The notes beneath the pieces were generated by a model. The model ran no database searches. It saw nothing but the letters and a program-made list of their open reading frames with translations, and was not told the DNA's origin. DNA of 9,266 nt from an uncultured Pseudomonadota bacterium (GTDB lineage Bacteria > Myxococcota > UBA796). The translations under genes and the position numbers were made by a program. Below are positions 98-7,374 of the stretch, in pieces (positions within the stretch are counted from its first letter, which is position 1; each line of letters begins with the position of its first letter). The stretch is taken from the NCBI GenBank assembly GCA_913040875.1, contig CAJWHX010000108.1:1-9266 (forward strand). The letters are read 5' to 3'.

Positions 98-391
98 TCA
101 AGATAAAGAGGTGTTCGAAGACAGTAGATCTTCGAGCACCTTTTTTGTATCGGAATGAGGAATGGCAATCACGTGTTTGATGACTTCCACGCCAAACGAT
201 TGTGCCTGTCTCATACCAATCTCTAAGCTCGCACAAAGCGCATTGTACTCTCCCGAAAGAGCAATCAGCACCGTCTCACCATTGGTTCGGCTTCCCACAT
301 AGGACACCGAAGCAGATTTCACCATTGCGTCTGTAGCCTCAACGGATGCTAGCAACCCCTTGACTTCTAAAAGTCCAATACTGTGAGACAT
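98..391 (-). CDS. BMC-domain microcompartment shell protein (single domain, BMC-H size)
   Basis: This 97-residue protein is a single bacterial-microcompartment (BMC, Pfam PF00936 type) domain. Such subunits form hexamers that tile the protein shell of microcompartments. The sequence follows PduA/EutM closely: SIGLLEVKGLLASVEATDAMVKSA matches the family's ALGMIETRG..A.IEA.DAMVKAA start, the lattice Lys of AMVK is kept, and HVIAIPHSD matches HVIPRPH.D, although the usual Arg before PH is Ile. The pore loop (VGSRTNGETVLIALSGE) is about one residue shorter than in PduA and carries N-G-E-T instead of the Gly-rich motif. The last residues (SSNTSLS) are Ser/Thr rich. The start at 391 is preferred because TTGGAG lies 5 bases before this ATG; an in-frame ATG at 457 would overlap the kinase gene. 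It follows the kinase by 40 bases on the same strand and is probably co-transcribed. No cargo enzyme is in view. Confidence 0.9.
   Translation of the reverse strand: MSHSIGLLEVKGLLASVEATDAMVKSASVSYVGSRTNGETVLIALSGEYNALCASLEIGMRQAQSFGVEVIKHVIAIPHSDTKKVLEDLLSSNTSLS
110..146 (+). terminator. Rho-independent terminator, plus-strand direction, inside the 3' end of the BMC gene
   Basis: A 12-base stem (110-121 GGTGTTCGAAGA with 129-140 TCTTCGAGCACC, one G-T wobble) encloses a 7-base loop and is followed immediately by six T (141-146). This is the classic intrinsic terminator layout for plus-strand transcription. Read on the minus strand, the hairpin is followed by a weaker T-rich stretch (TCTTTATCTT), so it could work in both directions. 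However, minus-strand termination there would fall at or before the shell gene's own stop codon at 98-100, so plus-strand use is more likely. Confidence 0.8.
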
Positions 392-431
392 AGGTACTCC
401 AATTTTTCCATGGATATAACCGTTCTGTGAT

Positions 432-2393
432 TCAAGGTACAACAGAAGGTACACCATTTATATACAACAGATGATTGCTCGTACACTCTGCACAGGTCAC
501 GAGTCCTACCCAATCGATGATCCCATCTTGATTCCAATCACCAAGACCCTTCATTCGACCATACTCCTCGTCGCTCAGTTTCATTTTCCAACATGGAGAG
601 GAAGACAGCTCAATTAGTTTTTGGCTCCCGGCTTGAATTCCATACAGCCTCCACTCCCCATCAGCAAGTTCCACAGGCAACAGACGCTTCAAATCTGGCA
701 CTCGAGCCACTTCAGTCGGTGTGGACATCGATAAATTACGCTGAACATCACGGCGTAAGATTCTATCGCCATCCAGATACGCAACCCAAGGCTGGTTGGG
801 AACAAACACAACGTTCGGAACAGATCCAAGTGGTGAGTGCCCCATAAAGCCCTCCTTGGAACCCAGACGATACTGAATGTTTTGATCCAATATGGGCACG
901 GTAAACATCACGTCTAGCCAACCATCTTGATTCAAATCCACCAACGCACCCTGTCTGGGAGGAGGAGCTTGAAAATTTTTGCCAGAAACTTCCCATGTGC
1001 GAGCAGTCGTTTGCACATGAGTTTGAATGTTGGATTCATCCTCGTGTAACGTCACGAAATCCAACAAACCATCCCTATTCAAATCTCCAATTAACGGCAG
1101 CTGATTGATTCTTCCCACGTCGATTTCAACAAATGTCTCTAGAGCATAGTCTGAATTGCCCCAATATATCGAGATGGACTGATCCATTTGATTGGAATAT
1201 ACCGAATCGACAAATCCATCCCCATCTACATCCAATAGACCTGCTGCAACGGTTTCACGTGGTCCCAAACGTCGAAATTGGTGTTGGGTTTCGATGATTT
1301 GTTCACAGGCCGGTATTTCAACTTTTGATTCCTGTAAACCGATCGAAGTATTCTCCGGCGATAGACTCAACACTTGAATACTGAGTACCAATACAGTCAA
1401 CAGCATCACAACTAAAATGACCACAGCCCCTTTAATCCATCGATTGGTTTGTACCTGAAGCTGCTCCGTCGACACTGTACTCACGGGTTGGATCGGTTTG
1501 GAAGCAGACGATAACTGAGACTCATATCGATGAACGGACTGAAAATCGATGGGGGTGAGTCGTGTGTAGCGTTCACCATCTAGTGAACGTATTATCTGTT
1601 CTAAAGCGCTCTGCATCTCCTGCGCGGATTGAAATCGATCTTCCAAAGATTCAGATCCTGCACGCTCGAAGAACTTCAACAATTCAATCGGCCACTCTCT
1701 ATCTTTGACTTCTTCAGTCAAAAGCATCATTGTTCGGCTGGAAAACAAGTCCCCCTTCAATTCACCGAAGAGCACCCATTGCATCGTCATTGCCAAACTG
1801 TATAAGTCAGCCTGTGGGGTGACGTCTTTAAAAGACAGTCGCTGTTCTGGAGCCATGAATGCCACAGTCCCCGCCAACACTCCACTTTGGGTCAACACCA
1901 TCGAAGCATCCCGCAACGAAGCCAGACCAAAGTCGGTGAGTTTAAAAGATTTCCCGTTGAGTCCAACCAAAATATTATGGGGTTTAATATCTCGATGTAC
2001 GATTCCCTGTGTGTGAATCTCTTTCAGCGCGGATAAAATTTGGACTCCCATATCGAGTGCTGTGAGCAAAGAGAACGCCTCTCTTTGACCCACCCAATCT
2101 GCGATGCTGACCTGGCAAAGCTCCATCACGATACACAGCTGGTTTTCATGGTGAAAATGATCGTAAATATGGACGACATTTGGGTCGTGAATGCTCGCCA
2201 TAATACTGACTTCACGGCTCAAGCGGCGACTGGGTGAGAAGGATTCTACCCCTTCTTCTGCCGACTGCTGAAGTGGTACACACTTCATCGCACACTCTCG
2301 CTCCAAGTCTAGATCAATGACTCGGAACACATCCCCCATCCCACCAGAGCCAATCTTAGCAATTTTATGATAGCGATTGTATTTGTCAGACAT
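432..2393 (-). CDS. Membrane Ser/Thr protein kinase (Hanks/PknB type) with periplasmic FG-GAP/VCBS-like repeats
   Basis: The 653-residue protein is a eukaryotic-like Ser/Thr kinase. Visible motifs are the Gly-rich loop GSGGMG (15-20), the ATP Lys in AMK (37), the helix-C Glu (61), catalytic HRDIKPHN (133-140), DFG (154-156), GT..FMAPE (175-183) and ADLYS (195-199), so the kinase looks active; RD-type activation is expected. A linker (about 270-318) leads to one membrane span (320-344). The remaining 309 residues should lie outside the cytoplasm and contain four acidic calcium-loop repeats of FG-GAP/VCBS type: DVDGDGFVD (388-396), DLNRDGLLD (437-445), DLNQDGWLD (486-494) and DWNQDGIID (619-627). 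A Cys pair (634, 637) is near the end. Such repeats usually build a beta-propeller, so ligand or calcium sensing is a reasonable inference. No clear ribosome site precedes the ATG, but the kinase fold starts at residue 8, so little is missing. It is the first gene of a unit with the BMC shell gene. Confidence 0.93.
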   Translation of the reverse strand: MSDKYNRYHKIAKIGSGGMGDVFRVIDLDLERECAMKCVPLQQSAEEGVESFSPSRRLSREVSIMASIHDPNVVHIYDHFHHENQLCIVMELCQVSIADWVGQREAFSLLTALDMGVQILSALKEIHTQGIVHRDIKPHNILVGLNGKSFKLTDFGLASLRDASMVLTQSGVLAGTVAFMAPEQRLSFKDVTPQADLYSLAMTMQWVLFGELKGDLFSSRTMMLLTEEVKDREWPIELLKFFERAGSESLEDRFQSAQEMQSALEQIIRSLDGERYTRLTPIDFQSVHRYESQLSSASKPIQPVSTVSTEQLQVQTNRWIKGAVVILVVMLLTVLVLSIQVLSLSPENTSIGLQESKVEIPACEQIIETQHQFRRLGPRETVAAGLLDVDGDGFVDSVYSNQMDQSISIYWGNSDYALETFVEIDVGRINQLPLIGDLNRDGLLDFVTLHEDESNIQTHVQTTARTWEVSGKNFQAPPPRQGALVDLNQDGWLDVMFTVPILDQNIQYRLGSKEGFMGHSPLGSVPNVVFVPNQPWVAYLDGDRILRRDVQRNLSMSTPTEVARVPDLKRLLPVELADGEWRLYGIQAGSQKLIELSSSPCWKMKLSDEEYGRMKGLGDWNQDGIIDWVGLVTCAECTSNHLLYINGVPSVVP

Positions 2394-2548: not shown

Positions 2549-3205
2549 ATGCGCCTGCTTTCATTGCTCTCATTCTCACTATTAATCGGCTGCCCTGACC
2601 CCAACGCCTCCTCATCTGGTATGGAGTCCACCTCAACAGCAACTGGTGGCACAGACCCACAAGCGACCACTGGTTCACAAGAAACAGATCCAAGCGCTGC
2701 CCGACTTAGCTGCGCAGAAGGGGACACAAACTGCATCACCATATCTGGAAGCATGGTCTACGACGGCACACCCAACGGATCAATTCGGTTGGATGTACAA
2801 AAAGTACGAAAAGGCTCTGCGCCCATGCTGGTACACACATTGGAAATGCAATCTGTTGATGAATTCTCTTTTGATGCCCCCAAAGGATATGGTCCCATCA
2901 TCATCACTGGATTCATCGATGAGGCAGGTGATGGTCCTTCTGCTTCTGATCCACAAGGTCGATTGAGCATCGATATCGGTGAAGAATCTCAGATAGATCT
3001 CAAGATTGAAGTCAAGTCCGACAATGCACCTGTACAGCCCAAACCACCATCGGACAAACCCGACGACAAATCTGGAAGCGCTTCAAACAACAAAGATGCA
3101 CCGACTGAAAATGGTTCTGAGAAGCCTGCCGCTGCTCCACCTGCAGATGCACCTCCCGCTGACGATGCACCTCCCGCTGACGATGCCCCCCCCGCTGACG
3201 AATAA
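2549..3205 (+). CDS. Putative envelope lipoprotein with Pro/Asp-rich C-terminal repeats
   Basis: The 218-residue product starts with a short lipoprotein signal (MRLLSLLSFSLLIGC) whose lipobox LIGC places the lipidated Cys at residue 15. The mature N-terminus is a Ser/Thr-rich linker. A Cys pair (RLSCAEGDTNC) opens a roughly 100-residue beta-rich domain, with alternating segments such as ITISGSMVYDG, SIRLDVQKV, GPIIITGFIDEAGDGPSASDPQG and SQIDLKIEV. It ends in a charged, low-complexity tail with tandem APPADD units. GAGGA (2539-2543) lies 5 bases before the ATG and supports this start. I recognise no named family; the domain resembles small beta-sandwich surface modules. It leads a unit with the glycosyltransferase and asnB genes, 11 bases upstream of the former, so it may sit at the cell envelope where those products act. 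Outer-membrane location is likely because residue +2 is Pro rather than Asp. Confidence 0.8.
   Translation: MRLLSLLSFSLLIGCPDPNASSSGMESTSTATGGTDPQATTGSQETDPSAARLSCAEGDTNCITISGSMVYDGTPNGSIRLDVQKVRKGSAPMLVHTLEMQSVDEFSFDAPKGYGPIIITGFIDEAGDGPSASDPQGRLSIDIGEESQIDLKIEVKSDNAPVQPKPPSDKPDDKSGSASNNKDAPTENGSEKPAAAPPADAPPADDAPPADDAPPADE
3146..3199 (+). repeat. Three tandem 18-base repeats with a C8 tract
   Basis: Three units of GATGCACCTCCCGCTGAC (3146-3163, 3164-3181, 3182-3199) encode the DAPPAD repeats at the end of the lipoprotein. The first two are identical. The third has A-to-C and T-to-C changes that create a run of eight C (3186-3193). A degenerate earlier unit (GCTGCTCCACCTGCA) precedes them. 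Repeat number and tract length are candidates for slippage. Confidence 0.85.
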
Positions 3206-6085: not shown

Positions 6086-7192
6086 CTATTTACTGGCAAA
6101 GTAACTTTTAGCATCTGCAAATGCAGCGACCAATCGCCCATGAGGCAAATCCACCCAAATCAGGTAGTCTGATGCTGTCGTCTCTACATACGCAGCTACC
6201 AACTGGCCTTCTTCAATTTGCCCGAACGCATCGATCACGGATAATGCTGCTACGGCATATTCCAATTGACCACTGATCAAAAACTTGGTTCTGTGGGATC
6301 TCCAAATTGCCCTCATCAAAGGTCGATCAAAGCTATCGAGCGCACTGGCAACGTGAAACTCTTTGAGGAGTGGAAGCTGTGTGCGAATCATTTCTTCTAT
6401 TCGAAGGATGAGTCGATTGCCCATCAATGGCTTAGAAGACGCAGGCTGATCCGTTTCCTTATCGACAGTCTGCACCATTTGTTTTACCGGTGATTTAGCG
6501 GCCGGTTGCGTTGCCTTCTGAGCTGATTTCGGTTGTTGGCTCTCCGCCGCAGCCGCGAGAAACAGATCCATCGCAGAGGGTGTTGATTTCTGCTGTGAAA
6601 TCTTGGTGTTGAGTTTCGCCAGACTGTCTTCGACTTGAGGACGAATGGACGGTGACTCTGAAACCTGAGACGAGGTTGGATTCGAGTCTGGGACTTCCCT
6701 AACACTCTCCGGACTCTTTTCGGCCTTATCCGCTTGTTGTTTTTTCAGAGCCAATCGCTGGCGATGCATTTTTTGCTGCAGCATCGCAATTTGAATTTGA
6801 GTTTGTACATCAATCTGAGATTTTTTCTCGGTTTTTTCAGGTACATCTACAGATTCAACGGTCTCTTCAGCAACTTCCTGTGTTGATCGTTCCTCCTCAG
6901 ATGCTTCACTCGTCAACGCTTCCTCATCAGAATCCATTTCTTCGATCTCAATATCAGAAGCATTGGATTCATATTCTTCACCCAAGTATCTAGGAGGACG
7001 TTTAGGCTGTTTCAAACCCGATGAGGACTTTTCGATCACAGGCGGAGTACGCTCTGTTGATGCGACCGGTAAATCAATCTGAAGAGGTGCTAAGGTCGAT
7101 TGTTTATTCTTTGGCTTCGATAGACCCGTCAGCTGAACATTGCTAAATAAATCTGCCAATGGATCCATTGGCTTGTTCGATGTTTCACCCAT
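6086..7192 (-). CDS. Hypothetical low-complexity/coiled-coil protein with compact C-terminal domain
   Basis: I do not recognise this protein. From the ATG at 7192 it has 368 residues, no signal peptide and no membrane span, so it should be cytoplasmic. After a short N-terminal segment (DPLADLFSNVQLTGL) comes a disordered acidic stretch rich in Glu/Ser. A predicted coiled coil (around TQIQIAMLQQKMHRQRLALK) follows, then a Gln/Lys/Pro/Ser linker. The C-terminal 110 residues are ordered, from LILRIEEMIRTQLPLL to AAFADAKSYF. This end has a helix-strand-helix-strand-strand-helix look (LVAAYVETTASDYLIWVDL, then GRLVAAFADAKSYF) that faintly recalls roadblock/LC7 domains; that is only a hint. ATG 7192 is chosen because AGGGAG (complement of 7202-7207) lies 9 bases upstream; the longer frame would start at a GTG at 7210 within this signal. 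It converges on asnB and diverges from the DsbD-like gene. Confidence 0.8.
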   Translation of the reverse strand: MGETSNKPMDPLADLFSNVQLTGLSKPKNKQSTLAPLQIDLPVASTERTPPVIEKSSSGLKQPKRPPRYLGEEYESNASDIEIEEMDSDEEALTSEASEEERSTQEVAEETVESVDVPEKTEKKSQIDVQTQIQIAMLQQKMHRQRLALKKQQADKAEKSPESVREVPDSNPTSSQVSESPSIRPQVEDSLAKLNTKISQQKSTPSAMDLFLAAAAESQQPKSAQKATQPAAKSPVKQMVQTVDKETDQPASSKPLMGNRLILRIEEMIRTQLPLLKEFHVASALDSFDRPLMRAIWRSHRTKFLISGQLEYAVAALSVIDAFGQIEEGQLVAAYVETTASDYLIWVDLPHGRLVAAFADAKSYFASK

Positions 7193-7374
7193 ATCTACAG
7201 TCTCCCTCACATGTTGTGTATAGTAGAATATAAACCCAACACGCTATTTTTCGTAGTGTGTACATCATTCTTGACATGGTTTTGATGAGTACCCATAAGT
7301 GAATGCAGTGGAATGATGCTCATACATCTTCAATCAGTGTTACTATGGTATCATTGACAGCCATCGAGGATACC
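7193..7374. promoter_or_regulatory. Divergent intergenic region with inverted repeat
   Basis: These 182 bases separate the hypothetical coiled-coil gene from the DsbD-like gene. An inverted repeat ACACGCTA (7239-7246) and TAGTGTGT (7254-7261), with one G-T mismatch and a 7-base T-rich spacer, lies between the two starts, just upstream of the plus-strand -35. It could be an operator. The minus-strand side (7213-7235) is AT-rich with TATACA/TACTAT-like hexamers, but no convincing -35, so the leftward promoter is not assigned. Confidence 0.35.
7271..7299 (+). promoter_or_regulatory. Sigma-70-type promoter for the DsbD-like gene
   Basis: A perfect TTGACA (7271-7276) is followed by a 17-base spacer and CATAAG (7294-7299), which matches TATAAT at four of six positions. 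Transcription would start near 7306 and leave a leader of about 70 bases before the ATG at 7375. No experimental support is available; the perfect -35, ideal spacing and position are the case for it. Confidence 0.55.

Follow-up and report, generated by a model that had tools for sequence, protein, structure and literature searches.

Among the shell proteins of bacterial microcompartments (BMC), the closest described counterpart of the protein considered here is CcmK3. The relevant passages of PMC5853843 describe R79 as conserved across microcompartments and in all classes of CcmK except CcmK3, where Asn is found instead; they further attribute to CcmK3 an acidic pore residue, less conserved residues facing the hexamer edge, genes usually located off the main locus, and branches longer than those of the major shell proteins. 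According to modelling in the part of PMC6788708 considered here, CcmK3 gains stability by sharing hexamers with CcmK4; mixed hexamers also appear in part of PMC13249358, and satellite shell genes were proposed, in a passage of PMC8217296, to tune permeability. As for PduA, sections of PMC4139245 report that, at the hexamer edge, no residues change more in exposed area than K26 and R79 and that the R79A variant still formed layered sheets and no tubes; other edge mutants often still assemble, according to portions of PMC10109471. From these passages, therefore, loss of the arginine points at most to changed tiling, a loss of tiling being unproven. PMC5180212, the relevant part of which deals with engineered residues, was set aside. 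Since CcmK3 lacks the edge arginine, this residue is optional for BMC-H membership.

Where kinases are concerned, the comparison is with CcmM, which is not a BMC-domain shell tile. Loss of the Ser/Thr kinase SpkB lowers phosphorylation of the carboxysome-associated CcmM, according to passages of PMC10651672; two other cyanobacteria do not conserve the CcmM sites, and the authors of that paper considered it unlikely that these play a key part in the formation of carboxysomes. Among the papers listed in searches of the open-access literature, a scope outside which most subscription papers lie, none described the pairing of a gene for a BMC shell protein with one for a Ser/Thr kinase.

A membrane kinase gene followed by a shell gene

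In the window, by which we mean the whole stretch of 9,266 nucleotides analysed, a kinase gene on the minus strand (2393..432) lies 40 bases ahead of a gene on the same strand (391..98) for a BMC-H protein of 97 amino acids. This pairing, the starting point of the first-pass annotation, was confirmed by open reading frames, Pfam matches and catalytic residues. The gap (392..431) contains a GGAG (400-397) that probably serves the BMC gene as ribosome-binding site, and the kinase gene is probably the first of the unit, because its upstream neighbour (2549, plus strand) points the opposite way. Promoter-like sites were fewer in the window than in shuffled sequences (2 versus 4.6) and terminator-like sites more numerous (7 versus 2.5), none of the latter falling in the 40-base gap or in positions 1-97. 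Two further proteins encoded in the window gave no Pfam or NCBIfam match at E<=1e-3: one of 218 amino acids with a repeated acidic, Pro-rich C-terminus (2549-3205, plus strand) and one of 374 amino acids (6086-7210, minus strand).

The kinase, a protein of 653 amino acids (432..2393), combines a Hanks-type kinase domain (residues 8-268; 1590..2372), identified by fold match and by Pfam (PF00069, Pkinase, 144 bits), with a single predicted membrane helix (residues 324-342; 1368..1424; hydropathy peak 3.06) and a putative outer sensor half of four FG-GAP-like, calcium-type repeats (435..1307; FG-GAP_3, 38.6 bits). The features expected of a Hanks-type transmembrane Ser/Thr kinase are all present, namely the catalytic Lys37, the HRD Asp135, the DFG Asp154 and the one membrane helix. 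In the structure model (pLDDT 78.3, pTM 0.50), a helix of residues 310-343 spans the predicted membrane segment. The best fold matches of the kinase domain, among the matches listed, are PknB/Stk1 of S. aureus, and the best 50 rows of a fold search with the whole model are all kinase-domain proteins. The PASTA-kinase (Stk1/PknB) equivalog model scored only 166.7 bits against a cut-off of 450, and the domain matches comprise FG-GAP repeats and no PASTA repeat. The FG-GAP half presumably lies outside the cell. Four of its cysteines (363, 601, 634 and 637) are present in all 17 aligned rows, as are the C, C, T, S, N and H of a CAECTSNH motif (residues 634-641; 471..494); with these features the outer half may bind calcium or an outside ligand.

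Edge, pore and candidate phosphosites of the lone BMC-H protein

The small protein (98..391) carries one BMC domain (PF00936) scoring 48.9 bits against a curated cut-off of 24.5, and its predicted model matches the BMC-H fold; its best sequence match in the PDB is 6ner, a BMC-H tandem fusion of Haliangium. We compared it and its relatives, hereafter the lone family, with 20 ordinary BMC-H proteins, namely the non-redundant sequences of loci L021-L074 (19 belonging to the order discussed below and one to genome G006), mostly the best-scoring ones rather than all 40 of the order. The full lone-family set of 24 rows leaves out three frameshifted or cut copies (P0015, P0145 and P0146) and two ordinary BMC-H proteins (P0147 and P0148), and the 25-row set used for the arginine count leaves out the frameshifted P0015 and the cut P0146. 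PduA positions were placed with a numbering offset that we take to be correct. With it, the columns corresponded to K26, N29 and R79, in agreement with PMC4139245 and PMC10109471.

The edge lysine, Lys25 in the window protein (317..319; PduA K26), is kept in 27 of 27 lone-family rows and in all 20 ordinary proteins. The edge arginine (PduA R79), present in 20 of 20 ordinary proteins, occurs in none of the 25 intact lone-family rows, which have Ile, Leu, Met, Ser, Val or Tyr at this position (Ile77 in the window protein, 161..163). The third PduA edge residue, Asn29, is scarce in both sets (2 of 27 lone rows and 1 of 20 ordinary ones, the others of which have Lys or Arg) and thus does not separate them. 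The pore loop (residues 34-43; 263..292) is one residue shorter than that of PduA and contains Glu or Asp, an acidic residue being found in all 24 full rows versus Gly-Gly-Gly in all 20 ordinary proteins. Both CcmK3-like traits, replacement of Arg79 in every member and an acidic pore residue, are therefore present throughout. These sequence comparisons support the view that the lone BMC-H differs from ordinary ones at places bearing on assembly, and the protein is an edge- and pore-altered shell protein, probably of accessory type. The term CcmK3-like is used here for a likeness in working, not in descent.

A recent origin of the lone family from the BMC-H of the order itself was considered. 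In a midpoint-rooted tree of lone and ordinary BMC-H proteins, built on 98 columns, with 24 of 45 inner branches open and with no CcmK rows included, the two groups stay apart and the lone family forms a separate group with 100/100 support. Its length is steady, at 97-99 amino acids in the 24 full rows, and family-specific positions such as Val10, Lys72, Ala76 and Thr82 are identical in all of them. Mean internal identity is 66% in the lone family and 90% among the 20 ordinary proteins, the two sets being unequal in depth.

The Ser/Thr-rich tail (residues 91-97; 101..121) had been proposed as an accessible target of the kinase, a proposal that the conservation counts do not favour. In the 24 rows, Ser91 is kept in 10, Ser92 in 21, Asn93 in 23, Thr94 in 21, Ser95 in 13 and Ser97 in 10, so that no Ser or Thr of the tail exceeds 21 of 24, against 24 of 24 for Thr82 (146..148); residues 94-97 have a pLDDT below 50 in the model. 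Ser26 is likewise found in all 24 rows; the ordinary proteins have Ala at its position and Ile, Leu or Val at that of Thr82. As PduA also has Ser at the position of Ser26, only Thr82 sets the family apart. It follows the R79 position by five residues and hence probably lies by the hexamer edge. Judged by conservation, Thr82 is the better candidate phosphosite.

Recurrence of the pair and BMC loci in related genomes

Searching with the single sequence gave 15 relatives of the BMC protein out of 16 candidates, and searching with a profile gave 28 out of 2057. The last two profile matches (P0147 and P0148) are ordinary BMC-H proteins, leaving 26 family BMC clusters. With the sensor half as query, 249 proteins matched at E<=1e-3 (the best 120 of the 249 being listed). 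The protein searches reach relatives that share exact words with the query, and the sensor-half search scored 7998 proteins of a larger set. We took as the kinase family the best 16 among the matches listed (P0016-P0031, E below 1e-30), because the next match has no listed kinase domain. A search of viral contigs gave 29 pattern matches, with no relative among them.

For four of the eight closest kinase clusters among the matches listed (P0016-P0023), the longest contig is exactly as long as that of a BMC cluster: 2576 bases (kinase P0020, BMC P0137), 3467 (P0022, P0141), 3859 (P0017, P0002) and 54436 (P0023, P0013). Adjacency in these relatives (P0001-P0031) thus rests on equal longest contigs and protein lengths rather than on observed gene order; on the 2576-base contig the two genes must adjoin, since only 305 bases remain besides their coding regions. 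The BMC proteins of the four contig-matched pairs are 58-93% identical to that of the window. No BMC cluster on a contig of equal size was found for the other four close kinases (P0016; P0018, a 463-amino-acid piece; P0019; and P0021) or for any of the eight more distant ones (P0024-P0031). On short contigs the BMC gene may have been cut off; the contigs of P0019 (18,479 bases) and P0024 (77,309 bases, the longest among the distant kinases) are long, so in these cases the gene may really be missing or have diverged too far. Conversely, 22 of the 26 family BMC clusters lack a kinase counterpart. Of these, 18 come from contigs of less than 1.9 kb, which could not hold the two genes together, P0138 is on a contig of 2,377 bases, and three are on long contigs (P0143, 10,632; P0145, 85,951; P0015, 46,672), the reading frames of P0145 and P0015 being damaged. 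The expectation that the pair would be conserved in relatives is accordingly borne out for half of the closest kinases and left unmatched for the other half: the pair recurs in some members of the clade and is not universal.

At E<=1e-24, with up to six candidates scored per genome, the sensor half was matched in seven of 377 genomes from the phylum to which G064 belongs; these seven fall in a single order, represented by 63 genomes. For the DsbD-like protein of the window, the 19 best matches (374-570 bits) among 235 genomes are in that order or its class, the next scoring 315 bits. The genes of the window thereby point to this order. A sensor-half scan of genome contigs yielded 20 loci, four of which (L001, L002, L003 and L011) hold kinases of the window family; none of the 20 showed a BMC match. 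The family of sensor kinases with an outer FG-GAP half also includes L051-L060 and L075-L077, and G037 has several of its members. A tie between kinase and BMC beyond the close clade did not hold up: the flanks examined at 13 distinct sensor-kinase places contain no BMC gene, and a link between the presence of the sensor family and that of BMC was rejected, a BMC match being found in 8 of the 11 genomes that match the sensor (E<=1e-14) and in 33 of the remaining 52 (Fisher p 0.73). The strongest sensor match of all is in G064, which has no full BMC-H match. Kinases as such are common: four genomes have 29-77 each (E<=1e-20).

BMC profile matches are present in 41 of the 63 genomes of the order and full BMC-H matches in 40, absence from the remaining 23 being unsure as their completeness is not given. 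Around the 40 BMC-H loci, EutN was found in 40, aldehyde dehydrogenase in 39 (at the remaining locus only 440 bases after BMC-H were examined) and class II aldolase in 23. On contigs that extend far enough, the gene order is BMC-H, EutN, aldehyde dehydrogenase, BMC-T, EutN, EutN, which resembles the HO-type BMC of Haliangium ochraceum as described in part of PMC8217296. With such loci in 40 of 63 genomes, the missing cargo genes need not mean a shell devoid of cargo, and the first-pass premise of a shell without cargo is weakened accordingly; it is probably just what the window shows, and a complete BMC is likely to be encoded elsewhere in the same genome.

At six of the 40 main loci (L100, L101, L121 and L125; L117 and L124), a divergently oriented Ser/Thr kinase gene lies 1.2-6 kb upstream, the kinases forming two groups with 55-84% and about 49-56% identity within the group. 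Given three to four expected by chance over 40 loci and 435 kb (a figure derived from a kinase density of one in about 105-133 kb, obtained for four genomes under a stricter, different model, with many loci ending at contig ends), these six were not counted as support, and the idea that kinases generally accompany BMC loci found none. In two main loci, a protein of 205-218 amino acids encoded directly before BMC-H (L082:743-1360 and L081:9194-9850) has a weak C-terminal BMC match (28.1 and 23.4 bits, respectively; cut-off 24.5). Off the main BMC locus, frames of 351-526 amino acids in G001:C85, G002:C167 and G003:C127 also show weak BMC matches, with two stretches each in the first and third and one in the second.

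Possible roles of the pair and comparison with known systems

The proposal that an outside signal read by the kinase controls shell assembly thus survives in part. The pair is real, it recurs and its BMC protein is altered; the no-cargo premise, the tail as target site and the wider kinase-BMC tie were weakened. The reading that we tentatively prefer, while holding it to fall somewhat short of probable, is a two-gene satellite unit in which a membrane Ser/Thr kinase that looks outward is encoded together with an accessory BMC-H of CcmK3-like type. As the pair recurs, its two products would act together, and the analogy with CcmK3 suggests a minor or mixed-hexamer role. The lone BMC-H would build no facets by itself and would instead join ordinary BMC-H encoded elsewhere, either by entering mixed hexamers or by serving as a minor tile, and would thereby alter permeability or cap the growth of the shell. 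The kinase would read an outside signal through its FG-GAP and cysteine domain and, as a guess, might switch the BMC subunit, most simply by phosphorylation on the cytoplasmic side, either at Thr82 near the edge or in the tail. A stronger version, which we consider rather unlikely, places the BMC-H ring under direct control of the membrane receptor kinase, phosphorylation of Thr82 or the tail deciding whether it enters, caps or leaves the shell or acts as a free signalling ring.

The same alterations could also mean that the ring has left the shell altogether and serves as a cytoplasmic hexameric kinase adaptor or scaffold, its acidic pore being a binding or gating site, with no compartment involved. 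Divergence as one separate group, loss of Arg79 together with the acidic pore, the position of a lone gene next to a signalling gene and the BMC-less G064 all agree with such an adaptor. We nevertheless doubt it, for the edge lysine, invariant in the family, would have no obvious use in a free ring, CcmK3 with similar changes is still counted as a shell component in the source passages, and a main BMC-H locus is present in most genomes of the order. Neither of these readings is needed if the two genes are simply co-transcribed neighbours, a satellite BMC-H happening to follow one of many sensor kinases. The abundance of kinases, the 13 sensor-kinase places with no BMC in the examined flanks, the absence of association over the 63 genomes and the four close kinases with no contig match to BMC all speak for chance; the four contig-matched pairs, despite BMC divergence down to 58% identity to the window protein, speak against it, as unlinked neighbours would rarely stay together for so long, and on balance we regard a mere neighbourhood as unlikely. 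Finally, the low internal identity (subject to the unequal depth of the sets) and the two frameshifted or cut copies (P0015 and P0145) could be taken as signs of a shell gene decaying under weak selection. Yet the length of the protein is kept in all 24 full rows, as are the family-specific residues, which makes decay highly improbable.

A second BMC-H family in which the edge arginine is missing and the pore is acidic, found in different bacteria and next to a sensor kinase, points to accessory shell subunits as a general class, and the kinase-BMC pair is a concrete candidate for signal-controlled shell composition. A satellite BMC-H is in itself of a known kind; its sensor-kinase partner is unusual. 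The kinase resembles PknB/Stk1 in the fold and sequence of its kinase domain and in its single membrane helix, whereas the outer half of PknB/Stk1 consists of PASTA repeats and that of the window kinase of FG-GAP repeats with four invariant cysteines and CTSNH. The lone BMC-H and CcmK3, as far as the latter is described in the relevant passages of PMC5853843, have in common the loss of the edge Arg79 throughout and the acidic pore residue. They differ in the replacement, which is Asn in CcmK3 and one of several residues, none of them Asn, in the lone family; in the bacteria that encode them; and in their setting, CcmK3 being a minor BMC-H of beta-carboxysomes encoded in a satellite locus with ccmK4, whereas the lone BMC-H sits with a sensor kinase.
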